Part shown: positions 11,683 through 32,263 of the stretch, piece by piece
How the letters are laid out: the number at the start of each line of letters is the position of its first letter
Numbering within the stretch: position 1 is the stretch's first letter
Source of the DNA: Pleurocapsa sp. MO_192.B19
Lineage (GTDB): Bacteria > Cyanobacteriota > Cyanobacteriia > Cyanobacteriales > Xenococcaceae
NCBI GenBank assembly: GCA_030064975.1
Contig: JASJDX010000003.1
Span: 1-33,021 of the forward strand
Reading direction: 5' to 3'
DNA length: 33,021 nt
The notes under the pieces: model-generated
Told to the model about the DNA's origin: nothing
The model's input: only the letters and a program-made list of their open reading frames with translations
The model's database searches: none
Position numbers and translations under genes: made by a program

Positions 11683-13170
11683 TTGGGTGGACTGTTTGAG
11701 CAAATGAATCGACCTGGAATTACTCCTGCGGGTAGATACAAAGGAGTAGACTATTTCAATGGTGGTTTGTTTGCCACAATTAATCCTATTGAATTAACTA
11801 AGGAAGAGTTAAACTATCTTGATGCAGCAGCGCGGGAAAATTGGCAACAGGTTCGCCCTGCCATCTTTGGGAATATTTTTGAGGGTACTGCTAATCAAGA
11901 AGAACGTCATGCTTACGGGATGCACTTCACTTCTGAAGCGGACATTATGAAAATTGTCAAACCCACCATTAGCAATTATTGGGATGACAAGATTGAGGCG
12001 GCTAATACCATTGCCGAATTAAATTCTTTACAGTTAGAATTGCAAAACTATCGCGTCCTCGACCCCGCCTGTGGTTCGGGAAATTTCTTATATCTGGCGT
12101 ATCAGGAGTTAAAAAAAATCGAAAAATCGCTGCTAGACAAAATCTCCGAACGCCGTAGATCTGAAACCCTCAAACAGCAGGTACAAATGGGTTTAGTTAC
12201 TCCCCTACAGTTTTACGGCATGGATATCAATCCCTTTGCAGTGGAACTAGCTAAGGTAACTTTAACTATTGCCAAAAAAGTCGCGATTGATCGCCTGGAA
12301 CTTACCGAACCAGAATTACCCCTCGACACTCTAGATAACAACATTGTCTGTCAAGATGCTCTCTTCACTCCCTGGGCAAAAGCAAGCGCAATTATAGGCA
12401 ATCCGCCCTTTTTAGGTGGTAACAAAATTAGATTGGAATTAGGTGATGATTATGCAGAAAAAATTTATCACAAATTTTCTAAAGTAAAATCTCAAGTAGA
12501 CTTATGTAGTTACTGGTTTAGATTAGCTCACGAAAATATTGATAAAAAAGATAGAGTTGGTTTAGTAGGTACGAATACGATAGCTCAAGGTAATACGCGA
12601 AAAGCTTCGTTAGATTATATTATGAATAACGGAGCTATTATTCATGAAGCTGTCTCTACACAGTCTTGGACTGGAGAAGCGGGCGTTCATGTAAGTATCG
12701 TCAATTGGTGTTATCAAAATACGAATGATTGTTACTTAGATAATAACAAAGTAGACAAAATTTCATCTTCTTTAAAAAACACTACAGATACTTCCAAAGC
12801 TATAAAATTAGCTGCTAATCGTGGTTATACATTTGAGGGTGTAAAACCAACAGGTAAAGATTTTATTGTTTCGCAAGAACAAGCTAAGAAATGGATTAGT
12901 TTGAATAACAAAAATGCAGAAGTACTTAAATTGTATTCTACTGGTTCTAACTTAACCAGCAATATCAAAGCAATTCCTGATAGATGGATTATTGACTTTT
13001 ACGGAATAAGTTTGGAAAATGTGATTGAATATAAATTACTTTTCGAGCATATCAGGGATAACGTAAAACCTGAAAGAATTAAAAATAGAGATAAAAAAGC
13101 TAGAGAAAATTGGTGGATATTTCAGAGAACTCGTCCAGAAAAAAAACTTATAGATATTTATGAAATCTAA
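11683..13170 (+). pseudogene. MmeI-like (type IIL) DNA methyltransferase/restriction enzyme remnant, truncated at both ends
   Basis: The open frame of 495 codons encodes the middle of a large MmeI-type protein, in which nuclease, helical spacer, N6-adenine methyltransferase and target-recognition domains are fused in about 900 or more residues. Visible here are FNGGLF near 25-30, the SAM-binding motif I DPACGSGNFL (127-136), GMDINPFAVELAK (179-191), motif IV NPPFLGG (240-246), and the end of the methyltransferase region with RENWWIFQRTRPEKK. The N-terminal nuclease and helical part are gone: an in-frame stop at 11674-11676 precedes the weak TTG start. The target-recognition domain is also gone, as the protein ends at IDIYEI. 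An active restriction enzyme is therefore not expected, though an orphan transcript may exist. Confidence 0.85.
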
Positions 13171-20392: not shown

Positions 20393-21619
20393 TTGAGAAA
20401 AGAAAAAATAATATCTGTTAAAACTAAAATCGTGAGGCAATATCTAAGATATTTAATTCCCTTCGTCGATCCTCAAGTTAGATCTTGGACGTGGGAAGCT
20501 CGCTTGTTGAATTGGTTAACTTGTGTTTGGCTAATTATTGGCTTGGTCACTTTAGTATCAGCCTCTTATCCAGAAGGAATAGTTGATAATAATGATGGAC
20601 TATATATTTTTAAGCGACAGTTAATTGGGGTAGCGATCGGGATTATTGGATTTAATTTTATGGCTCGCCAGCCTCTACGGCAAACGCTGAAAATTTCTCC
20701 TTTAATGGTGTTAGTTTTGCTATTGCTGATTTTTGCCACCTTAGTTCCAGGTTTAGGTAAAACAACTATGGGAGCAAGTCGCTGGATTCCTATTGGCCCA
20801 TTTTCTCTACAACCATCAGAATTAATCAAACCTTTTCTAGTCTTACAAGCCGCCTATTTGTTCTCTCGCTGGGACAAGTTGCCAGGAAGAGTTCGCATAG
20901 TTTGGTTAACTGTATTTGCTCTGATATTGGCAGGGATTTTAAAACAGCCCAATTTAAGTACTACAGGACTGTGTGGTATGAGTTTATGGCTAATTGCCCT
21001 AGCAGCAGAATTACCTTGGAGTCAGTTAATAGTAGTTTCGGTTGGTGGCGTTGGTGTAGCTAGCCTTAGTGTTGCCTTAAATCCCTATCAGTTAGATCGG
21101 ATTACTTCTTTTATTAATCCTTGGCAAGACTATCATAATAAAGGATATCAGTTAATTCAAAGTTTACTAGCGATCGCTTCAGGTAGCTTAAACGGTTCTG
21201 GATTTGGGCTTTCTCAACAAAAATTAGCATACCTACCAATTCCCTCTACAGATTTTATTTTTGCAGTTTATGCCGAAGAATTTGGCTTTGTAGGCTGTGT
21301 GCTTTTGCTGTTATTAATTATTGGTTATGGAACTTTAGCTTTAAGGGTAGCAATTAAATGTCGTCACAGTATTCCTCGGTTAGTTGCTGTGGGAGCAATG
21401 GTATTTATTGTCGGGCAATCACTAATTAACATTGGTGTGGCAACGGGTTCTTTGCCAACTACAGGGTTACCTCTACCTTTCTTTAGCTACGGAATCAATT
21501 CAATTATTGCCTCTTTATTATTAGCTGGATTATTGGTGCGAGTTGCCAGAGAAAGTAATATAACTAAAGTAATTGCCCTCAATCAAATTGCTGCGGAAAG
21601 GAGTTTAACCAGGAATTAG
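20393..21619 (+). CDS. ftsW: septal peptidoglycan glycosyltransferase FtsW (SEDS family)
   Basis: Polytopic inner-membrane SEDS glycosyltransferase that polymerises lipid II at the division septum with a class B PBP partner. The 408 residues contain about ten hydrophobic segments from residue 40 on. Hallmarks are SRWIPIGPFSLQPSELIKP (129-147), Asp287 in PSTDFIFAVYAEEFG (the essential acidic residue of SEDS proteins), and the signature GSLPTTGLPLPFFSYG near 351-366. The AEEFG and NxGVATG pattern favours FtsW over RodA. The start is uncertain: TTG at 20393 gives a basic lead, while a GTG at 20432 (residue 14) is an alternative; neither has a clear Shine-Dalgarno. It sits immediately after the apcC terminator, so it may depend on read-through or on its own promoter inside apcC. 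Confidence 0.9.
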   Translation: MRKEKIISVKTKIVRQYLRYLIPFVDPQVRSWTWEARLLNWLTCVWLIIGLVTLVSASYPEGIVDNNDGLYIFKRQLIGVAIGIIGFNFMARQPLRQTLKISPLMVLVLLLLIFATLVPGLGKTTMGASRWIPIGPFSLQPSELIKPFLVLQAAYLFSRWDKLPGRVRIVWLTVFALILAGILKQPNLSTTGLCGMSLWLIALAAELPWSQLIVVSVGGVGVASLSVALNPYQLDRITSFINPWQDYHNKGYQLIQSLLAIASGSLNGSGFGLSQQKLAYLPIPSTDFIFAVYAEEFGFVGCVLLLLLIIGYGTLALRVAIKCRHSIPRLVAVGAMVFIVGQSLINIGVATGSLPTTGLPLPFFSYGINSIIASLLLAGLLVRVARESNITKVIALNQIAAERSLTRN

Positions 21620-21818: not shown

Positions 21819-24800
21819 ATGCCTACTCCCAAGCAGAATCTAGTTGATTCCCCCCCCAAAATCCCCAATTCTGAGAAAATAATGCACGCTCCTGGCTCAA
21901 TTGTTGGTAATCGCTATCAGATTATTCAAAAGTTAGGTAGAGAGGAAATGGGTAAAACCTACCTAGCTAAAGATTTGCAAGCTACGGGGGATGCTAGATG
22001 TGCTGTAGAGCAGTTAAATCCGACCTTTGATAATGAAGTAAATTGGCGGATTATTAAACAGCATTTAATTAATGAAGTGGCAATTTTAGAAAGGCTGGGA
22101 GATCACCCTCAAATTCCTCAGTTCTATAACTATTTCATTGAAAATAAACGGTTTTATTTGGTTAGAGAATATATTGATGGAGATAATTTAGAGCAAGAAG
22201 TTGAACGTAAGATATTTGATGAGGCGGATACTATTTATCTGATTTACGATGCTTTAAGAATCTTAGACTTTATTCACAAAACTAACGTTATTCACCGCGA
22301 TGTTCAACCGATTCATTTAGTTAGGCGGAAGAAAAGTAATACTTTGGTTCTAATTAATTTCGGTGCAATTCGGGAGGTAGAATCAACAGAAATTAATCTT
22401 AAGGGGGAGTTGATTTCTAGTAAATTCTCAGGTAACTGGGCATATGTAGCACCAGAACAAAAAGTAGGAGAATCTCACTTTAGTAGTGATATTTACTCCT
22501 TAGCCAAAACCGCTGTTTATGCTTTAACTGGGCGCTCGCCACAAGAATTAGAACAAACTAATATAAGTTGGCAAAGTCAGTGTCAGATCAGTCCCAAACT
22601 AGAGAAGATTCTAACTAGAATGATGTCATCTAATGTTGATGAACGGTATAGATCTGCACTAGAAGTATTGAATGATCTGCGACCCTTACTTAAAATTAGG
22701 CAGGTGGTAGGAGGGCGTTACTCTATTACCCGCTATTTAGGGGGTAATGCAGAAATTGAGACATATTTAGCCGATAATTTACGTCGTCACTACCAATCCC
22801 CCTGTTTAATTAAGCAAATTAAGCTTCCACAGACTATTGAGCCGACTCAAGTCACTATCGAGCGGCGTTTTGCTGAAGAACTATCAATTCTAGAAAGATT
22901 GGGGTATCACGAACAAATTCCCCAACTGTGGGATCATTTTACAGAAAATGACGAATTTTATTTAGTTCAAGAATACATCCAAGGAGAAAACTTGGCTCAA
23001 AAAATAGAGCAGCAAGATTTATCTCTGGCACAGGTAATTCAGATTTTAGAAAGTACTTTGGTTGTTTTGGGGTTTATTCATCAAAACCGTATTATTCATC
23101 GTAATCTCAAGCCTTCTAATTTAATGATTCGCCATGAAGATCAGCAGGTTATTCTGACTGATTTTGGTATTTTGACAGATATAAAAACTTTACCCAACGC
23201 TAGGTCAGACTCTAGCCAGAGTGAAGATAAGAAGAACTATTGGTCTCCTGAACAAATTGCTGGGAGACCCACTATTAACAGCGATCTATATGCTTTAGGC
23301 ATGACAGCAATCGAAGTCTTAACTAAAGTAAAACCCAGTACACTGTCCAGAAATAAACGGACAGGTAAGCTATTGTGGCAAGAAAAAATTGTGGTCGATC
23401 GCCGTTTAGTTAAAATTATCGACAAGATGATTCATCTGGATGTAGGACAACGCTATCAATCTGCGGAGAAAGCTCTCCACGACCTCCAAAAAATAAATAC
23501 TTCTGCCAAGCCTTCAATTAGGCAGCCCCAGATGTTAAACAGCGAGGTTACAAATAGCCAGCAAATTATGAAGCCACGACTACGGCCATTTCATATTTTT
23601 GTCGGTTTATTAGGCATAACTTGTCTGTTGGGGAGCATTGAATTTGCTTTCCCTACAGTTAGACCAGCATACTACTGGTATCAAGGCAAACAACTGTTGG
23701 CAGAAAAACCCCAAGCTGCACTTAATAATTTTACTAAAGCTATCGATCTTAAACCTCAGAGTTCTCTGGCTTGGTCGGGAAGAGGCGATGCTTTATATAA
23801 TCAAGGACGTTATCCAGAAGCTTTGGAAGCTTATTATGAAGCAACGGAGCTAGATTCAACAGACTTTGAAAACTGGAAGAAACAGGGAAATGCTCTGTAT
23901 AGTTTAGAACAATTTACTAAAGCGATCGCTGCTTACGACTATGCCTTAGAATTAGACCAAGAAGATGGGGAGCTTTATAACCGCAAAGGGCGAGCTTTAT
24001 ATGAACTACAGCGTTACCAGGCAGCTTTAAAGATGCAGGAAACAGCACTGGAAACCGATCGTTTTAATGCTCAATTTTTAAGCGATCGCGCTAAGACTTT
24101 AGTGGCGTTGGGAAGCTACTATGAGGCTTTGACAGTGTTCAACCGGGTTCAAGCAGTTGAACCGTTCAATTTAAAGTTATGGCAAGATAAATCTTTAGTA
24201 TTAAAAGCTCTAAATCGTCCTAAAGAAGCAGAGAGAGTTAATCAAGAAATAATTCAGCATTACCAGAAAATTATCGAGAAACAGCCCCATAATGAAAAGA
24301 TATGGCTAGCTCAGGCTAACTTTTTTGCTGAAATTGAAATGTATCAGAAGGCGATTGATTCCTACGATCGGGCAACTAGACGAAAACCTAATTTATACGA
24401 AGCTTGGTTAGCAAAAGGCAAAGTTTTAGGGAAACTCGGTCAAGAGCAAAAAGCCTTAACTGCTTTAGATAAAGCCTTACAAATTCGTCCCGAATCTTAT
24501 AAGGCTTGGCAAGCCAAAGGTTTGGTATATCAAAACAACCAAAATAATTTACCAAATAATTTAGATAAAGCGATCGCCAACTATGATAAAGCTATTGCCA
24601 TTAATCCTAATTATGCTCCCCTGTGGCGCGATCGAGGATTAGCCTTAAATGAACAGGGAAATCATACTCAAGCCATTGAATCTCTAACTCAAGCTAGCAA
24701 AATTGCCCCTAACGATCTTAAAACCTGGATGGGTCTGGCAAATACCTGGGATATAATTGACCAAGATCAAAAAGCTTTATCTGCTTTGGATCGTGCCATT

Positions 24801-24968
24801 GAAATTAAACCGCAAGATCCAATGATTTGGAGTCAAAAAGGTTTAATTTACACGAAAAATGGTCAATACAACGAAGCCTGTGACACCTATCGTCAATCTC
24901 GTTTAGCTACTCCTAATGCGGCTGTCATTATCGATTCCATGAAAACATTAGGATGTCGAATGAATTAG
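21819..24968 (+). CDS. tandem pseudokinase - transmembrane - TPR protein
   Basis: A 1049-residue protein with two protein-kinase folds in series (about 31-290 and 298-560), one membrane helix (about 591-611) and a long array of TPRs (about 622-1030). Kinase-1 keeps HRD (159-161) and APEQ (211-214). It has lost the ATP-binding lysine (Glu64 in CAVEQL), the catalytic-loop Lys and Asn (DVQPIH at 161-166) and the DFG Asp (NFG at 180-182). Kinase-2 keeps Lys332 (LIKQI) and DFG (448-450) but has HRN instead of HRD (Asn429). Both Gly-loops are degenerate. Kinases with TPRs are common in cyanobacteria; here neither domain should phosphorylate, so a scaffold role is inferred. Topology places kinases in the cytoplasm and TPRs outside, or the reverse. 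A paralogue lies at 26141. Confidence 0.85.
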   Translation: MPTPKQNLVDSPPKIPNSEKIMHAPGSIVGNRYQIIQKLGREEMGKTYLAKDLQATGDARCAVEQLNPTFDNEVNWRIIKQHLINEVAILERLGDHPQIPQFYNYFIENKRFYLVREYIDGDNLEQEVERKIFDEADTIYLIYDALRILDFIHKTNVIHRDVQPIHLVRRKKSNTLVLINFGAIREVESTEINLKGELISSKFSGNWAYVAPEQKVGESHFSSDIYSLAKTAVYALTGRSPQELEQTNISWQSQCQISPKLEKILTRMMSSNVDERYRSALEVLNDLRPLLKIRQVVGGRYSITRYLGGNAEIETYLADNLRRHYQSPCLIKQIKLPQTIEPTQVTIERRFAEELSILERLGYHEQIPQLWDHFTENDEFYLVQEYIQGENLAQKIEQQDLSLAQVIQILESTLVVLGFIHQNRIIHRNLKPSNLMIRHEDQQVILTDFGILTDIKTLPNARSDSSQSEDKKNYWSPEQIAGRPTINSDLYALGMTAIEVLTKVKPSTLSRNKRTGKLLWQEKIVVDRRLVKIIDKMIHLDVGQRYQSAEKALHDLQKINTSAKPSIRQPQMLNSEVTNSQQIMKPRLRPFHIFVGLLGITCLLGSIEFAFPTVRPAYYWYQGKQLLAEKPQAALNNFTKAIDLKPQSSLAWSGRGDALYNQGRYPEALEAYYEATELDSTDFENWKKQGNALYSLEQFTKAIAAYDYALELDQEDGELYNRKGRALYELQRYQAALKMQETALETDRFNAQFLSDRAKTLVALGSYYEALTVFNRVQAVEPFNLKLWQDKSLVLKALNRPKEAERVNQEIIQHYQKIIEKQPHNEKIWLAQANFFAEIEMYQKAIDSYDRATRRKPNLYEAWLAKGKVLGKLGQEQKALTALDKALQIRPESYKAWQAKGLVYQNNQNNLPNNLDKAIANYDKAIAINPNYAPLWRDRGLALNEQGNHTQAIESLTQASKIAPNDLKTWMGLANTWDIIDQDQKALSALDRAIEIKPQDPMIWSQKGLIYTKNGQYNEACDTYRQSRLATPNAAVIIDSMKTLGCRMN

Positions 24969-25000
24969 TAAAATTAATAAATGAATTAGTAAAATTAATA
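24959..25000. repeat. perfect 21-bp tandem duplication spanning a stop codon
   Basis: Copies occupy 24959-24979 and 24980-25000 and are identical. The first contains the terminal ATG-AAT-TAG (Met-Asn-stop) of the TPR gene; the second repeats the same triplets after the stop. It looks like a recent slippage or duplication event in the convergent spacer with the fasciclin gene. Confidence 0.9.
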
Positions 25001-25041
25001 ATTTTAGGACTTAAGCATGGAAGGATAAGTCCCAAATCCAA

Positions 25042-25623
25042 CTATTTAGTTTCAGTTAAAAATTCAGGAGGAATTAAGACTTGGTCAAGGGGAATCACGA
25101 CACCGTCAGTAGCAGCAAGAGGTTCACTAGCAGTAGCTTCGTTTAACTTTACTCTAATCTTATTATCTCCCACAGGTACACTAGTAATTTGTACTGAATT
25201 TTTCTCTAATACAGTTGCTACCGATCCATGTTGGAAGTCTGATTCGCTAATTTGACCCATTACCATATGATATTGCATTAGCTTTTTCATGTTTTCTGGT
25301 TCAGTTAGCTTCTGTTTCATTTCAGGAGATAAAGCAGCAAATGCTTCTTCACTGGGAACTAAAATAGTTAAGTAGTTTTGGTTTTCTAAGGTTTCCAGTA
25401 AATTCGCTTCCTGTAAACGCGAATTAAAAGCTGGATATTGTTCTAACAACAGAGCAAGGTCGACCTCTTCGTCAGCAGATTGATAATAGGCCGCAAACGG
25501 GCTGAAAAAGCTAGCAGATGGATATAAAAATCCTTGTGCAAAAACTGGAGCAGTAACCGCACAAGTAGCTCCCGCTAAAACCGTTGCCATAGTTACTTGG
25601 TTAAATAATTGCTTTAATAACAT
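25042..25623 (-). CDS. secreted fasciclin (FAS1) domain protein
   Basis: From the chosen ATG (25621-25623) the protein has 193 residues with a clear Sec signal peptide (MLLKQLFNQVTMATVLAGAT, then CAVTAPVFA) and probable cleavage at VFA-Q. One FAS1 domain follows: LLEQYPAFNSRLQEANLLET, YLTILVPSEEAFAAL, QYHMVMGQISESD, and the C-terminal ATDGVVIPLDQVLIPPEF, which is the family H2-like end. The frame is open 41 codons further upstream, but that extension would bury the signal peptide, so I reject it. FAS1 domains mediate adhesion or matrix contact outside the cell. It lies antisense between two paralogous pseudokinase-TPR genes. Confidence 0.9.
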   Translation of the reverse strand: MLLKQLFNQVTMATVLAGATCAVTAPVFAQGFLYPSASFFSPFAAYYQSADEEVDLALLLEQYPAFNSRLQEANLLETLENQNYLTILVPSEEAFAALSPEMKQKLTEPENMKKLMQYHMVMGQISESDFQHGSVATVLEKNSVQITSVPVGDNKIRVKLNEATASEPLAATDGVVIPLDQVLIPPEFLTETK

Positions 25624-26140
25624 AGTCTTCAAGATATCAGGATAATATGTTGATGATTTTTTGAACTTTAGAAAACTCAATAATGATCGAACAAAGTTAA
25701 GTAGAGCGATTATTGAGGGAAATTTATCAGCACTATATACAGACAAACTACTTTTTAAATATAAATCCTACAGAAGAACTTTGCTGCTGAGTACTATCTA
25801 GTTCACTTATAATTCTTAATATAGATAAGACTAGATTCAAATATGCATTTTGATGCCAAAAATCTTGAGCTGAAAAAGCAATAATAGTTATTTTGTAGAA
25901 CAATAAACTAGAGAGGTAAAAAAAATATCAATTAGAGCGAGAAAAATTAAGATTTTTTAATTCTTTTCTCAGCCTGACTTCAGACTTAAGCTTAAAGATA
26001 AATATTTATAATTTACCTACCTAATACTATTATCTGAAAAATTCAAAAATTATAATGAAATCTTAACTTTAAATTTATAAATTAGTCGAATTGATCTAGT
26101 CAAATCTGGTTGTGAATCGGTAGTACAGCTACCTCTAATC
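25624..26140. promoter_or_regulatory. divergent control region between the fasciclin gene and the second pseudokinase gene
   Basis: The 517-base, very AT-rich gap has no credible gene. It holds one foldback, 25939-25950 with 25957-25970 (GAGAAAA/TTTTCTC plus ATTAA/TTAAT, two bases bulged). Several -10-like AT hexamers are present, but none has a convincing -35. Both flanking genes must start here. Confidence 0.4.
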
Positions 26141-28459
26141 ATGATGAAGGAAGACCAAATAAAAACAATTGGTGGACGATACAAGTTAATTCAAGAACTC
26201 AACCAAGGTAGATGGAGTAAAACCTATTTAGCAGAAGATTTGGCAATGCCCCAAAAATCAAAATGTATAGTCAAAGAACTCCGACTTAACCTTGAAGATC
26301 AAGCGAGTTTAGCAGAAATCAAAGCTTATTGGGTTCAAAAAGCCTCGATTTGGCAGACAAGAGTAATCAATAACCAAATTACTCCAATTACTCAACTCTT
26401 AGCCTGTTTTGAAGAAAATAAACACTTTTACTTGATTCAAAAATATATTGAGGGAGAAACTTTAGCCACAAGGCTACAAAAAACACCTCGATTAAGAGAA
26501 ACCGAAATAATAGACTGGCTCAAAAAAGTTTTGTCAATTCTAATCACTATACATCGACAGGGGATTGTACATGGTAACCTTAAGCCTTCTAATTTCGTCA
26601 TTACTCAACCAGATCGTCAAGTTATCTTAATTGATTTTGGGATTATTCATAATGTTGTCGAGTGTCTAATCACTCAAAAAAAATCAACAAAACTAATTAT
26701 CGAAGAAAATAGTTATTATCCCCAAGATTTAGTCAATGGCAAGCAAAAGCAAGCTTTTCAGGCTGATTACTACGCTGTTGGTATAATGGCAATCCAGGCG
26801 ATCGCCGACATAGACCCAGCCAAATTACCAATTAACCCTTCGGCAAAAGCTATTTTCAAACAAGAAAACCGAAAAATTACGCCTAAGTTAGTAAAAATAA
26901 TAGAGCGGATGACCAGTCTTGATGCTGCCGACAGTTATATATCGGCAGAAGAAATTATTACCGATCTCAATCAAATTAACTCCCCAGTGAAAAATATTCA
27001 GCCAAAAAATGGCAACTTAATTACTACAACCCCAATTCTTTCCCCAGAGTTACAAACCAAAATTAAAACTACGATTAAAAGAATTGAACACAAGCCTAAA
27101 TATATAGTAGCGGTAGTTATCGGTATCTTAGCCTTAGGGGGCATAGGGGAACTGTTATTTCCTACTTTACGACCGTTTTACCATGTCTGGCAGGGAAAAA
27201 AACAGCTACTAGAAGAACCCAAAGCTGCTCTTAACAGTTTTCAAGAGGCGATTAAAATCAACCCCCAATCCGCTTTAGCCTGGAAAAATCGAGGAGATGC
27301 TCTGTTCAATTTAGAGCGTTATCGGGCTGCTCTCTTTGCTTATGACAAAGCATTACACATCAGCCCTAATAATCCCAAAATTTGGCAAGGAAGAGGAGAA
27401 GCGTTATATCGATTAGAACGTTTTGAAGCAGCAGTAACCGCCTATGACAAAGCATTACAGTTAAACCCTAAAGATGCAGTAATTTTGAATCGTAAAGGCA
27501 GAGCTTTATATAAACTCGAACTTTACCCAGATGCCCTAGCAGCCCAAGATCAGGCACTAAGACTAAAACCAAATTATGTTAATGCTATGAAGGATCGTGG
27601 TATTGCTTTACTGGGAATCGGCAAACATGAAGAAGCTATGGTTGCCTTTAGCAATGCTCAGACTTTTGATCCTCTAAACCCTGAATTATGGCAAAACAAA
27701 GCTTTGGCACTGCAATATATTAATCAACCCCAGGAGGCAATGCGTCTGTATCAAGAAGCTGTAGAAGCTTACGATAAGCTAGTCCAAGACAATCCCAAGA
27801 ATATTACCGCCATGCTGGATAAGGCCAATGTGCTGAGTAAATTACAGCAGCATCAACAGGCACTGTCATCTTATGAACAGGCTTTGGAGGTTAATCCTGA
27901 TTCTCATTTAGCCTTGTTAGGCAAAGGTAATACTCTATTTGCTTTACGTCAATACGATCAAGCCCTAAAAGTATTCGATCGGGCTTTAAAGCTTCAGCCA
28001 AAATCTTATTTGACTTGGCATAATCGCGGCTCACTATTGCGGGATGGTCTGAAAAATTTATCAGAAGCGATCGCCTCTTACGATCGCTCTTTAGAAATTA
28101 ATCCCAACTTTTATCATGCTTGGCGCGATCGGGGTGTAGCTTTAAGCCAAAATCAACAGCATCCAGAGGCACTCAACTCATTTAAAAAAGCTTTAAATAT
28201 CCAGCCTAAGGATCATAAATCTTGGGTTGCTCGTGGTATTGCTCTATCATCATTAGACCGCAACGACGAAGCGATCTTTTCTTTTGATCGAGCAGCAGAA
28301 ATTCAACCCCAAGACCCCTTTGTTTTAATGAATCGCGCTACAGCTTTAGAAAAAAATCAAAGATATACCGAAGCCTGTGATATTTATCGACAGCTGATCA
28401 AAATTAATCCTGGATTTTCGCCAGCGATTAAAGGGATTAAAAGAGTAGGCTGTAGCTAG
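26141..28459 (+). CDS. pseudokinase - transmembrane - TPR protein (paralogue)
   Basis: A 772-residue protein with one kinase fold (about 11-280), one membrane helix (about 321-340) and a TPR array (about 352-765). The ATP lysine (Lys45, CIVKEL) and DFG (165-167, LIDFG) are kept. HRD is replaced by HGN (144-146), so the catalytic Asp is Asn146; the Gly-loop reads NQGRWSKTY and the APE segment is changed to YPQDL. The domain resembles kinase-2 of the protein at 21819: both have H-x-N-L-K-P-S-N and QVIL-x-DFGI. The juxtamembrane stretch (FPTLRPFYHVWQGKKQLL) matches FPTVRPAYYWYQGKQLL there. The pair therefore arose by duplication with loss or gain of a kinase domain. It starts with ATG-ATG. Its role is unknown; a sensor or scaffold at the membrane is inferred. 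Confidence 0.85.
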   Translation: MMKEDQIKTIGGRYKLIQELNQGRWSKTYLAEDLAMPQKSKCIVKELRLNLEDQASLAEIKAYWVQKASIWQTRVINNQITPITQLLACFEENKHFYLIQKYIEGETLATRLQKTPRLRETEIIDWLKKVLSILITIHRQGIVHGNLKPSNFVITQPDRQVILIDFGIIHNVVECLITQKKSTKLIIEENSYYPQDLVNGKQKQAFQADYYAVGIMAIQAIADIDPAKLPINPSAKAIFKQENRKITPKLVKIIERMTSLDAADSYISAEEIITDLNQINSPVKNIQPKNGNLITTTPILSPELQTKIKTTIKRIEHKPKYIVAVVIGILALGGIGELLFPTLRPFYHVWQGKKQLLEEPKAALNSFQEAIKINPQSALAWKNRGDALFNLERYRAALFAYDKALHISPNNPKIWQGRGEALYRLERFEAAVTAYDKALQLNPKDAVILNRKGRALYKLELYPDALAAQDQALRLKPNYVNAMKDRGIALLGIGKHEEAMVAFSNAQTFDPLNPELWQNKALALQYINQPQEAMRLYQEAVEAYDKLVQDNPKNITAMLDKANVLSKLQQHQQALSSYEQALEVNPDSHLALLGKGNTLFALRQYDQALKVFDRALKLQPKSYLTWHNRGSLLRDGLKNLSEAIASYDRSLEINPNFYHAWRDRGVALSQNQQHPEALNSFKKALNIQPKDHKSWVARGIALSSLDRNDEAIFSFDRAAEIQPQDPFVLMNRATALEKNQRYTEACDIYRQLIKINPGFSPAIKGIKRVGCS

Positions 28460-28580: not shown

Positions 28581-30788
28581 TTAAAAGCGGAAAGTAGTAC
28601 GAATTGTACCTACATAGATAGTGTCGTTATCCGCAATATGACCTGGATTAGTCACGAAAAAGAAGCCAGGGGTAATAAACACATTATCACTAGCTTTGAA
28701 ACGATAAAAGAATTCAAAGTGTAGAGATGTAGCTTCATCTTCTTGACCAATCCTTTCTGGTAAATCACCTGCCGCAACTAAACTCTCTACACCTTCTTCT
28801 GATGCGTTAATTTCTCCTACTGTATCTAGATTAGGATTATTATCAGTAACAACAGTATCCGACTCATTATTAATTACCTGTTCAAAAAATGGTACTGGTG
28901 TTCCTGGAGTTTCTGGTCCTGCATCGACTAATTTGGGAGGCATCCCAAATATAATACCGAATAAATCTCCTTCCCTACCAAAAGGATCGCTAAGACCGAA
29001 AGAAAGAGTAAAAGTTGCTGACTCTGCGAAAGGCTCTTCTCCTGCAGAATCTCCAATTCCGTTAATATCTGGATTTCCTACGGCAAAATCATCATCAAAA
29101 TCAGGAAGTGCATTGATAAAGTCAGTAAACGTATAGCCACCCCAAGCTGCCAAATTTATTTTCTCTGTAGCATTCCACTGGATACTTCCTCCTACAGCAT
29201 TTATTTGTGCTGGTTGATCGCCTAAGAAAAATCTACAACAGGCTTCAAACGTTGGATCGTTTTGATCGGCTTGCGGGGAAGGAATCCTGGCATTAGAAAC
29301 TAATCCTCCGGTTTCTGCATTGACGCTACCAGTAAAAGTCCCTAAAGTACCATCACTTGAATAGGCATTAACATAATTAATTCCAGTAACGATACTGTCG
29401 GTCGGTTGAACTAAAACTTGTACGCCCAAAGCACTGTGGTCTGCGCCCAAGAATCCCCCGTCTGGATCGCCGCTATCTCTGGTACCATAGGCAGCTTGAA
29501 ATCTTACTGGATCGGCAATCTTCCAATCAAAACCTACTCCTGCATCCATGGCACCACCAATACGTAAAATCGGATTAAGCTGCCCAAAACGAGAAATAGA
29601 ACCTCTGCCGATATCAAAAAACGGTGCATTGGCGGTAAGAACATTGCTGAGGGCGAAACCAAACGCCGAGCCATAAAAGACTACTTTGTCATCAAAAGCG
29701 GGAAAGCGATACTCCAAAATATCTAACACTACTTGATTTTCTAAACCTGCCTGATATCCAAGGCGAGCCATGTAAGTATTTAGAGAACCGACATTGGTGA
29801 AACCACCATTATCAAAGTTACCAGTAGTTAAAAACATTCGCAGACGATCTTCACCTGTAAAAGAACTTTGCAATCCCAAACGTGCTGTATAGGTAAAAAC
29901 AGTTTCCGTATCTGGATCGTCTCGATTAACACAATCAGCTCCTAGATCTTGATCTTCTAGATCGTCAGGTGTCAGATCCACGGTACTACACCCCCCTGGA
30001 GGATCGCCACCAAAAGCATCAGCAAGAGCAAAAATAACTTCTCCATTTAAGATGGTAGTGGTAGAAAATTGATTATCTTCTAACCATCCTAAGCGATTAT
30101 CTAGAGTGTCAACTCGTCCTTTGATCGCTTGCAGTTCCGTCGCAAAATCTTGACTTAGTCTACGAATAGTTTGTAAATCTTCTTGACTAACGGTTTCTTT
30201 TTCAGCAATTGAACGTTCAATTTTTTGTAAACAAGAATTTAATCCTGCGGCAAATTCATAACGACTGAGAGACTGGTTACCGCGAAATGTTTGATCGGGA
30301 AAACCGCCAATACAGCCATAGTTATCTACGAGGGAACGCAATGCTTCATATGCCCAGTCATCTGGTGCAACGTCTCGCATTTGGGAAACATTGGTAGATT
30401 GAACTAAATAAGCTTCAGGTATGATTGCCTCTACCCCTAAAGAGCCAGCATTAGTCTGATTATCGCTTAATAATGTGGTCGTTGGAGCTAATGTAGGTAA
30501 TGTAGAATTAATTGTCCCTGGAGTTTTGGCAGGCAATGGCAAACTCAAACTGGTTTTTGAAAGCAACTCAAAGCTATTCAAGCTATTATCAAAAAAATGT
30601 GGGCTTTGCTGCCAGTGGCGATCTCTTTTGGCGGAGAACTGCAACCAATTGTCCTCCTGGTTTTCCGAGAGCACATTGGCATCGAGCCAATCAAACTCAT
30701 GCTCATAAGACTCTGCTTTAGCTACAGATGTCGATAATAAAAATAAAGATAGTCCCAATAACCCAGATACTATAGACTTAGTTTTCAT
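28581..30788 (-). CDS. SLH-domain outer-membrane porin (cyanobacterial OprB/iron-uptake porin family)
   Basis: Outer-membrane beta-barrel anchored to peptidoglycan through an SLH domain. The 735-residue product has a signal peptide (MKTKSIVSGLLGLSLFLLST.., cleavage near AKA-E26), a Ser/Thr/Pro-rich spacer (about 60-130) and one SLH domain (136-187, MRDVAPDDWAYEALRSLVDN then CIGGFPDQTFRGNQSLSRYE). A coiled coil (186-238, ending RVDTLDNRLGWLEDNQ) and a barrel follow, ending in the aromatic TIRTTFRF. Family members are usually about 500-600 residues. The excess comes from the long N-terminal spacer and from acidic loop insertions, for example around GGCSTVDLTPDDLEDQDLGA and near the C-terminus. 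Substrate is not shown by sequence. A 15-bp palindrome lies about 125 bases upstream. Confidence 0.92.
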   Translation of the reverse strand: MKTKSIVSGLLGLSLFLLSTSVAKAESYEHEFDWLDANVLSENQEDNWLQFSAKRDRHWQQSPHFFDNSLNSFELLSKTSLSLPLPAKTPGTINSTLPTLAPTTTLLSDNQTNAGSLGVEAIIPEAYLVQSTNVSQMRDVAPDDWAYEALRSLVDNYGCIGGFPDQTFRGNQSLSRYEFAAGLNSCLQKIERSIAEKETVSQEDLQTIRRLSQDFATELQAIKGRVDTLDNRLGWLEDNQFSTTTILNGEVIFALADAFGGDPPGGCSTVDLTPDDLEDQDLGADCVNRDDPDTETVFTYTARLGLQSSFTGEDRLRMFLTTGNFDNGGFTNVGSLNTYMARLGYQAGLENQVVLDILEYRFPAFDDKVVFYGSAFGFALSNVLTANAPFFDIGRGSISRFGQLNPILRIGGAMDAGVGFDWKIADPVRFQAAYGTRDSGDPDGGFLGADHSALGVQVLVQPTDSIVTGINYVNAYSSDGTLGTFTGSVNAETGGLVSNARIPSPQADQNDPTFEACCRFFLGDQPAQINAVGGSIQWNATEKINLAAWGGYTFTDFINALPDFDDDFAVGNPDINGIGDSAGEEPFAESATFTLSFGLSDPFGREGDLFGIIFGMPPKLVDAGPETPGTPVPFFEQVINNESDTVVTDNNPNLDTVGEINASEEGVESLVAAGDLPERIGQEDEATSLHFEFFYRFKASDNVFITPGFFFVTNPGHIADNDTIYVGTIRTTFRF

Positions 30789-31009: not shown

Positions 31010-32263
31010 TTAATTACAATCTTCTCCTAACAATAAGAATTCACAGCCTGGGGAAGGCTCATCCCTAAGCATATTTTTTAAGGAGAAACTTTTATAGACG
31101 TCTTGAACTACATCATCTTTTTCAGCTAGGTCTAATCTACCTGTAAGGTCTTCGCTAGCAGAGATATCCAAAACACCGTTGTTACTATCAGTTTTAAATA
31201 CAGGTGTCATCGCCGCTTCAATAAAAGTTTGACTGGGAGGTTGACGATTGAACAACACTTTGATATCTAAAGGATTCCACATTGACAAAAAATTATTGGC
31301 ATTTTGACCACTACTAAACTGAGTATGCAAAATCGGCGGATCGTAGTTGATTGCCGAAGATACAACTTGATCGATATCCTCGGACTCTAGACGTAAATTA
31401 TCAGTTTCAGCTTGGCTAACGGAACAATATTGTTGAACCATTTGCCCTTTATCTGCTGAACCTCGACCATGAACCCCAATTACAAAACCATTGCGGTCAA
31501 ATACTGGGCCTCCACTCATTCCAGGACGGGTTAAATCAATATAAAATAAGCTGTACCCATTTTCTCCCTGATTTGTGGCGATAGTTCTGGTCATGGGAGT
31601 CCAGGCTAAACGTCGCTGTCTTCGGGCAACCTTACCTCGACATTTGCCAGTTATGGGATCTTTTTCTTTTTCTGGATCTGGCCAACCAGAGATGTAAATA
31701 GTCTCACCGAGATTAACACTATTTACATCTCCAATAGAAGCAATCGGATATTCCTTTTCACTGCTAAAACTAATTACAGCTAAATCTGTTCCTGCTAATC
31801 TTCCTGGCACTATTAGGGAGTAGCAACCAAACCTCACTAAGTTTGTACTGGTAATACCTTCCTTTAAGGGACAATCTCGACCATCATCAACTTCTGTAAT
31901 AGTATGAACTATACCATCGCTAGTACGAATTCCATGAGGAATGTTTAATTTTAAATATCTTTGCTTGAGGTTATGGGTAACAGTCAAGACATAATAGTTG
32001 TTTTTTTGTCTACCAATAATCACACCTGAACCAGGATTCCAAACCCCATCAAGATTCTTTTTACTAGCTAAAGGATTATTACGATTTTCTTCTAACTCTG
32101 TGATTAATTCTGGTGTTAGTCCAGGGGCAACTAGAACTGTAGTTTGTCTAGCAATTGAGTTTATTTCTTCTAGGGACAACTCTGCTAAAGCTGGAGAAAC
32201 TACTGTGCAACTGAGACAAAAAGCTCCTAAAAACTGGCTAATGAATTTATTTAAAGCAAACAT
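31010..32263 (-). CDS. secreted trypsin-like serine protease
   Basis: The 417-residue protein has a signal peptide (MFALNKFISQFLGAFCLSCT.., cleavage near ALA-E28) and a chymotrypsin-fold protease domain (about 35-275). The catalytic triad is His97 (VLTVTHNL), Asp160 (AGTDLAVISF) and Ser250 (RPGMSGGPVF), all intact. Cys131, Cys147 and Cys208 could form disulfides. The C-terminal 140 residues have no motif I know and no PDZ domain, so it is not a DegP/HtrA type. Such periplasmic or extracellular trypsin-like proteins are widespread in cyanobacteria with unknown targets. It lies upstream of the porin on the same strand, but 221 bases apart, so probably its own transcript. Confidence 0.9.
   Translation of the reverse strand: MFALNKFISQFLGAFCLSCTVVSPALAELSLEEINSIARQTTVLVAPGLTPELITELEENRNNPLASKKNLDGVWNPGSGVIIGRQKNNYYVLTVTHNLKQRYLKLNIPHGIRTSDGIVHTITEVDDGRDCPLKEGITSTNLVRFGCYSLIVPGRLAGTDLAVISFSSEKEYPIASIGDVNSVNLGETIYISGWPDPEKEKDPITGKCRGKVARRQRRLAWTPMTRTIATNQGENGYSLFYIDLTRPGMSGGPVFDRNGFVIGVHGRGSADKGQMVQQYCSVSQAETDNLRLESEDIDQVVSSAINYDPPILHTQFSSGQNANNFLSMWNPLDIKVLFNRQPPSQTFIEAAMTPVFKTDSNNGVLDISASEDLTGRLDLAEKDDVVQDVYKSFSLKNMLRDEPSPGCEFLLLGEDCN

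Follow-up and report, generated by a model that had tools for sequence, protein, structure and literature searches.

Conserved membrane proteins of Pleurocapsa with impaired kinase-like domains: a putative stepwise retirement of tandem Ser/Thr kinases

The window analysed here, a 33,021-nucleotide stretch of contig JASJDX010000003.1 from the cyanobacterium Pleurocapsa sp. MO_192.B19 (genome of 6.79 Mb, 82% complete), contains two genes, P1 and P2, for membrane proteins in which kinase-like domains precede a transmembrane (TM) segment and an array of tetratricopeptide repeats (TPRs). P1 has two kinase-like domains in tandem, D1 and D2, and P2 has one (Table 1). Judging from the sequences, it is reasonably probable that both descend from membrane Ser/Thr kinases with TPRs that were retired stepwise as phosphotransferases and kept as proteins, perhaps as a switch or a scaffold. 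This reading is built on observed features: the altered residues, their stepwise loss among relatives, their conservation, purifying selection on the altered domains and the domain order.

Pfam searches found two Pkinase stretches and TPRs in P1, one Pkinase stretch and TPRs in P2. The Hanks-type kinase profile PF00069 scored 207.7 bits for P1 and 75.2 bits for P2 (cut-off 31.7), the best stretch of P2 covering profile positions 57-212 of 263. Hydropathy gave a single strong segment after the kinase part in both proteins, at residues 593-611 of P1 counted from the ATG (597-615 of the 1053-residue stop-to-stop frame) and at 322-340 of P2. An earlier note on this DNA, made from the letters alone, had described full-length genes, a TM helix, TPR arrays and APE-like segments in two of the domains; the open reading frames (ORFs) are indeed open, and Pfam, hydropathy and the APEQ and SPEQ segments of D1 and D2 bear out the rest.

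The catalytic residues were evaluated by phmmer alignment to solved kinases. In D1, AVE faces AVK, HRDVQP faces HRDLKP and NFG faces DFG, the HRD Asp being retained. In D2, HRN faces HRD, and in P2 it is HGN that does so; both retain the Lys and the DFG. A home-made profile concurs, with E/HRDVQPIH/NFG in D1, K/HRNLKPSN/DFG in D2 and K/HGNLKPSN/DFG in P2, and the motifs listed for the three domains in the earlier note were therefore right. The same profile alignment places PQDL at the APE position of P2. Across 16 P1 proteins, both D1 and D2 always carry the alphaC Glu. None of the three domains has the beta3 Lys, HRD Asp and DFG Asp of an active Hanks-type kinase together (D1 E/D/N, D2 K/N/D, P2 K/N/D). 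All three are thus pseudokinases under a definition by sequence, namely the loss of at least one of these residues without data showing activity (PMC12599244).

There are 40 Pkinase matches in the genome of the window. Among 34 domain rows from it with the HRD column filled, nine deviate at the beta3 Lys, HRD Asp or DFG Asp, and D1, D2 and P2 are three of the nine; of the other six, one has just a gap in the Lys column and two have Leu at the Lys with HRD and DFG intact, possibly alignment slips. The predicted loss pattern is uncommon in this genome, yet putative pseudokinases are not rare there. Two further kinase-like loci of the genome (L001 and L030) lack the catalytic Asp and read HRNIKPEN with NFG and HKNINSSS with NFS.

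A full-length P1 orthologue is present in 17 of 27 genomes of the family: 11 of the 13 from the window's genus and six from four other genera. The named relatives at the P1/P2 locus are Pleurocapsales cyanobacterium LEGE 10410, Pleurocapsa sp. CCALA 161 and a Myxosarcina metagenome-assembled genome. Both domains are canonical in two members of the sister genus (G086 and G103). D1 is canonical while D2 is altered in three others, with NFG in G201 and HRN in G199 and G200; the search row of G200 counts one stop, and the frame read (1053 residues) contains both domains. D1 is impaired in all 11 proteins of the window's genus. Its beta3 Lys is Glu in nine, Gln in one and retained in one; its DFG Asp is Asn in eight and retained in three; its HRD Asp is retained in nine and Asn in two; and Gln replaces the Lys of DxKPxN in every one. 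D2 of the genus has HRN, the Lys and the Asn of DxKPxN in 11 of 11 and the DFG Asp in 10 of 11. In G202 both domains are wrecked (E/HQA/KFS and E/HRY/GLG). The activation-loop Thr, which is not part of the definition of impairment, is absent from all 11 D1 and all 11 D2 domains of the genus; G086, G103, G201, G199 and G200 have it in D1 as well as in D2.

In a tree of the domains computed without the motif columns, the 17 D1 domains form one set (support 96 in the SH-like approximate likelihood ratio test, SH-aLRT), and the 17 D2 domains form another together with one domain from G162 (99). The P1-like tandem of G162 was left out of the P1 counts; it is 36% identical, lies on a short contig without ftsW and has both domains impaired. 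Its first domain is very degraded, and it stands beside a P2-type gene (L102/L210), the two adjoining each other in L210.

Like rungs of a ladder, living relatives with the same ftsW gene upstream thus go from having both domains canonical (G086, G103) to a single altered domain (G199-G201) and on to two altered domains in the window's genus. Canonical orthologues had been named beforehand as the sign that the changes are strain-specific decay. Such orthologues exist; they belong to the sister genus, however, and therefore date the loss instead of marking decay in one strain. The reading in the earlier note is partly supported: the changes themselves proved fixed in the genus when surveyed, and the statement that "the family" had left signalling by phosphorylation was too wide, since the P1 family includes canonical members. 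With near relatives on every rung, the fate of a kinase after its role as an enzyme can be tested using these relatives as controls.

Seven P2-type proteins were identified by a whole-length search of the 27 genomes and a tree: one each in G000 (the window's genome), G120, G149, G068 and G209, and two in G162. Asn replaces the HRD Asp in all seven; the Lys is kept in six and the DFG Asp in seven, and the activation-loop Thr is absent from five, one of which has Ser. In a tree computed with the motif columns left in, the P2-type set and the D2-TM-TPR part of P1 proteins come out as sister groups (SH-aLRT 98 and 94). A recent duplication of P2 from P1 was ruled out, as the P2-type genes form this sister set with members in genera g2 and g4. 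From the Asn in seven of seven and the sister position, it is likely that P2 lost its base before the genus arose.

The altered D1 and D2 domains are under purifying selection. The ratio of nonsynonymous to synonymous substitution rates (dN/dS) in five pairs from the genus was 0.083-0.245 in D1 and 0.058-0.180 in D2; the C-terminal part gave 0.146-0.196. D2 was lower than the C-terminal part in all five pairs and D1 in three. Canonical D1 in two sister-genus pairs gave 0.087 and 0.071; D1 of the genus is somewhat relaxed but still held. In four pairs from genus g57 of another family, f9, whose tandem proteins are described below, both domains (0.018-0.158; D2 0.018-0.079) were lower than the C-terminal part (0.157-0.191) in every pair.

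In the mechanism we propose, D2 would most likely still bind ATP and Mg through its Lys, alphaC Glu, Asn and DFG Asp while lacking the catalytic base, and its nucleotide occupancy would serve as a conformational signal instead of a reaction. These kept residues suggest membership of the nucleotide- and cation-binding class of pseudokinases, which binds ATP and a cation (PMC8141879). P2 may behave like D2, less surely; of the nucleotide binding envisaged for both in the earlier note, the D2 half is the stronger, since both keep the Lys and DFG and the alphaC Glu is not seen in the row of P2. D1, from which the Lys and mostly the Mg-binding Asp are gone, could offer a partner surface that D2 would contact. 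Through the single TM segment, the TPR array across the membrane would be coupled to the state of D1 and D2, with a putative direction of signalling. By the customary reading, the kinase domains would lie inside and the TPRs outside the cytoplasm.

Several observations, together with the reports of catalysis and of SpkE activity cited in the next paragraph, weigh against this interpretation. P2 has no APE segment, and in its row the alphaC column is Lys, in a weakly aligned region; both speak against an intact ATP pocket there. The usual GxGxxG loop is missing from D2 (LGGNAEI) and is odd in the canonical relatives too. The topology is not firm. Counted over 30 residues on the N- and C-terminal sides of the P1 TM segment, Lys plus Arg come to 5/4 in the window and are equal or reversed in two relatives (3/3 in G120, 2/3 in G086); G149 and G046 have 10/3 and 10/5. 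An AlphaFold2 model of D1-D2, computed from an alignment four rows deep (the window and L125-L127), was discarded and left the pocket not visible, with a mean predicted local distance difference test (pLDDT) of 40.1 and a predicted template modelling score (pTM) of 0.33. Within the genus, the P1 orthologue of G205 lies in three broken frames (L136, 7050-10095), and the genome search found none in G208, which is 81% complete. Kinase-domain ratios are rough in two of the five genus pairs, because dS exceeds 1. The P2 row without alphaC Glu and the mixed topology counts slightly lowered our confidence.

One alternative is that D2 and P2 work as genuine, if slow, kinases with Asn for the base, D1 regulating D2. 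D2 retains the other nucleotide residues, and the change of Asp to Asn is reported to support catalysis in HER3 and JAK2 (PMC7586955). The cyanobacterial protein SpkE, listed without the catalytic Asp, is reported inactive in one source (PMC2176072) and active in another (PMC11863333). The assertion in the earlier note that these residues are required for phosphotransfer is too strong in the light of these reports. However, the activation-loop Thr is also gone, from 11 of 11 D2 domains of the genus and five of seven P2-type proteins (one with Ser), and P2 is without APE; slow catalysis is accordingly given a minor share of our expectation.

It is also conceivable that the kinase part is dispensable and decaying slowly in a protein maintained by its TPRs alone. 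The degraded domains of G202 and the broken gene of G205 fit such decay, as do the variable motif states of D1 within the genus and its dN/dS above that of the C-terminal part in two of five pairs. Yet D2 is below that part in five of five genus pairs, D1 in three of five and both f9 domains in four of four, and Asn remains Asn. The changes are fixed in the genus and under purifying selection, and therefore a non-catalytic role reads better than decay, which we regard as improbable. The domains could, lastly, have adopted another chemistry through the kept Lys, Asn and DFG of D2, for which SelO and SidJ are precedents (PMC12599244). No new conserved pocket residue was identified in this analysis, and this explanation is very improbable. 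We know of no relative with such altered chemistry in the P1/P2 clade.

P1 and P2 are real, conserved genes that appear to belong to a known kind, the bacterial pseudokinases; the ladder of loss is what seems unusual. Bacterial pseudokinases are numerous and scarcely studied experimentally (PMC12599244). The cyanobacterial cbSTKII-TPR Hanks-type kinases (PMC2176072) likewise combine a kinase domain with TPRs. That 2007 survey lists Tery_4781 with TPR(11) and Tery_4782 with TPR(10), the former among nine proteins with deviating motifs. P1 differs in its tandem, all-impaired domains, and the available passages of the survey contain neither tandem pairs nor losses traced over relatives. Among the literature matches listed, in which subscription papers are thinly covered, there was no paper on tandem or TPR cyanobacterial pseudokinases, an absence that is unproven.

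The CP1 pseudokinases (PMC12599244) resemble P1 and P2 in being annotated in cyanobacteria and in their mixed motif loss. CP1 proteins, however, lack a TM segment and are tied to a COG3899 domain, whereas P1 and P2 have TPRs and, by hydropathy, a TM segment, which places them outside CP1. No ATPase domain was found among the best 25 of 26 and the best 25 of 32 Pfam families for the two proteins; COG was not searched. The ActPs2 pseudokinases (PMC12599244) share Asn for the HRD Asp with D2 and P2. They are mostly actinobacterial, with beta3 Lys changed to Arg and mostly with DFG deleted, whereas D2 and P2 keep the Lys and DFG and so do not belong to ActPs2. JAK (JH2 and JH1) and HER3 are also Asp to Asn pseudokinases, and the JAK domains stand in tandem. 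However, they are eukaryotic tyrosine kinases, JH2 is N-terminal of JH1, and neither domain of P1 is canonical; no kinship is claimed. The solved structures closest in sequence to D2 and P2 include the membrane kinases StkP and PknB, while the best chains for D1 are from CDPK1. StkP and PknB are active and have a single kinase domain with PASTA repeats, whereas P1 and P2 carry TPRs; the PASTA kinase model NF033483 (cut-off 450) gave 188.8 and 81.7 bits. In PknG, TPRs are reportedly tied to control of the kinase (PMC8546545).

Tandem kinase proteins occur in other clades as well. In the b clade (24 proteins) D1 is canonical at the Lys, HRD Asp and DFG Asp in 24 of 24, and D2 has HxN in 24 of 24. 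The TM segment was checked in four of them and the TPRs in one. As in JAK, one canonical domain is joined to one Asn domain, in reversed order, the canonical domain of the b clade coming first. The window's genome has a member (G000:C225:18425-20038, L096), and 23 similar proteins are spread across the family. The f clade includes G056, whose two domains are canonical, and the tandem kinase-TM-TPR proteins of family f9, which are present in 13 of 14 genomes and have Asn in D1 in all 13. Genus g57 (8/8) has HRN with Lys and DFG in D1 and VEQ / HLD[LV]TPWS / NFG in D2; genus g39 (3/3) has HRN in D1 and HSN in D2; and G170 and G008 differ. The f9 clade thus arrived independently at an end state like that of the window's genus. 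In contrast to that genus, the g57 domains retain the activation-loop GTPGY. In the c pair, G027, G056 and G154, neither domain has lost the Lys, the HRD Asp or the DFG Asp.

Of 100 domain rows, 45 have lost the HRD Asp, 42 of them to Asn, and the tree implies at least 11 such changes. These rows exclude the single kinases of the window's own genome and, in general, all single kinases except 10. Also excluded are half of the b proteins (12 of 24), three f9 proteins that are nearly identical, one G162 row that is very degraded and any row with more than 60 gaps. The tandem domains of these cyanobacteria thus appear often, not always, to lose the base by a change of Asp to Asn. Activation-loop Thr set against the HRD Asp gave 71/23 against 11/36 in a Fisher table that ignores kinship and from which no probability is drawn. 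The link breaks in f9, whose domains have the Thr although D1 is without the base and D2 is degenerate; it also breaks in the D2 domains of G199 and G200.

The trees favour, without proving, that the tandem of the f clade arose separately; with all D1 or all D2 domains constrained together, the approximately unbiased test gave p-AU 0.199 and 0.071. Separate loss is independent of separate origin, because each clade has canonical members (G086 and G103; G056). A class-level survey found at least six two-domain matches in 4 of 388 genomes (E<=1e-105, 16-row profile), a floor given that three candidates per genome were scored and no f9 tandem genome was in the draw.

A bolder and rather doubtful proposal is that two tandem kinase-TM-TPR lineages converged on complementary broken sites with the order swapped, which, if selected, would be a membrane switch run by nucleotide occupancy without phosphorylation. 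The putative ATP-holding domain (Lys, Asn and DFG, with Asn for the base) would be D2 in the window's genus and D1 in g57; the putative ATP-free domain (HRD Asp kept, Glu for Lys, NFG) would be D1 of the window and D2 of g57, both with VEQ. The pair is limited to these two lineages, and g39, G170, G008 and G202 are without it. Among the 11 D1 domains of the window's genus, the exceptions are one with Lys kept, one with Gln, three with the DFG Asp kept and two with the HRD Asp lost.

Table 1. Positions of P1, P2, their parts and neighbouring genes in the window
Feature	Position	Strand	Remarks
P1: tandem kinase-like D1-D2, TM, TPR array	21819..24968	+	1049 aa, ORF open
P1 domain D1	21888..22703	+	Glu for beta3 Lys; HRDVQPIH; NFG; APEQ retained; no activation-loop Thr
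P1 domain D2	22704..23543	+	HRN for HRD; Lys, alphaC Glu, Asn and DFG retained; no activation-loop Thr
P1 TM segment	23595..23651	+	hydropathy; coordinates converted from stop-to-stop frame
P1 TPR part	23703..24968	+	Pfam TPR_16 from residue 629; membrane side putative
P2: one kinase-like domain, TM, TPR array	26141..28459	+	772 aa, ORF open
P2 kinase-like domain	26141..27010	+	HGN in place of HRD and PQDL in place of APE; Lys and DFG retained; alignment row without alphaC Glu
P2 TM segment	27104..27160	+	hydropathy
ftsW-like gene	20393..21619	+	upstream of P1, same strand; marker of conserved locus
Fasciclin-domain gene	25042..25746	-	divergent from P2; counterpart divergent from P1 in five other genomes
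SLH/OprB porin gene	28581-30788		follows P2
Trypsin-like protease gene	31010-32263		follows P2

The ftsW gene precedes P1 on the same strand at 18 of 18 loci, the broken copy included. A fasciclin gene lies between the two at five loci, and none was found there at the remaining 13. Such a gene is divergent from P1 in G086, G103, G201, G200 and G199 and from the P2-type gene in G000, G120, G149, G068, G209 and one G162 copy, giving 11 family loci in total. The arrangement of ftsW and P1 is reminiscent of the actinobacterial rodA/pbpA-pknA/pknB cluster. However, no kinase was found in the stretch read at 20 ftsW loci of other genomes (17 families, with G068 of the same family included), drawn from 97 genomes with an ftsW match. 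The ftsW-P1 neighbourhood may therefore be an accident of the locus; a partnership with FtsW was set aside, and ftsW was retained solely as an orthology marker. Either apcA or apcB is close to ftsW at 14 of these 20 loci. At the 18 family loci, apcA and apcB are upstream of ftsW in 13; other genes take that place in G199, G200, G204 and G205, and in G207 the contig stops. Promoter and terminator scans were no better than shuffles (20 vs 19.6 and 5 vs 5.0, respectively).

Porin- and protease-like genes are also near the P2-type gene of G149, whose P1 sits on a different contig (L105). Elsewhere in the window, positions 1480-2691 encode an IS605 OrfB-like transposase with a Cas12f1-like TNB domain, and positions 11683-13170 hold an MmeI-type DNA methyltransferase domain in a 495-residue frame, perhaps a fragment of a larger enzyme.

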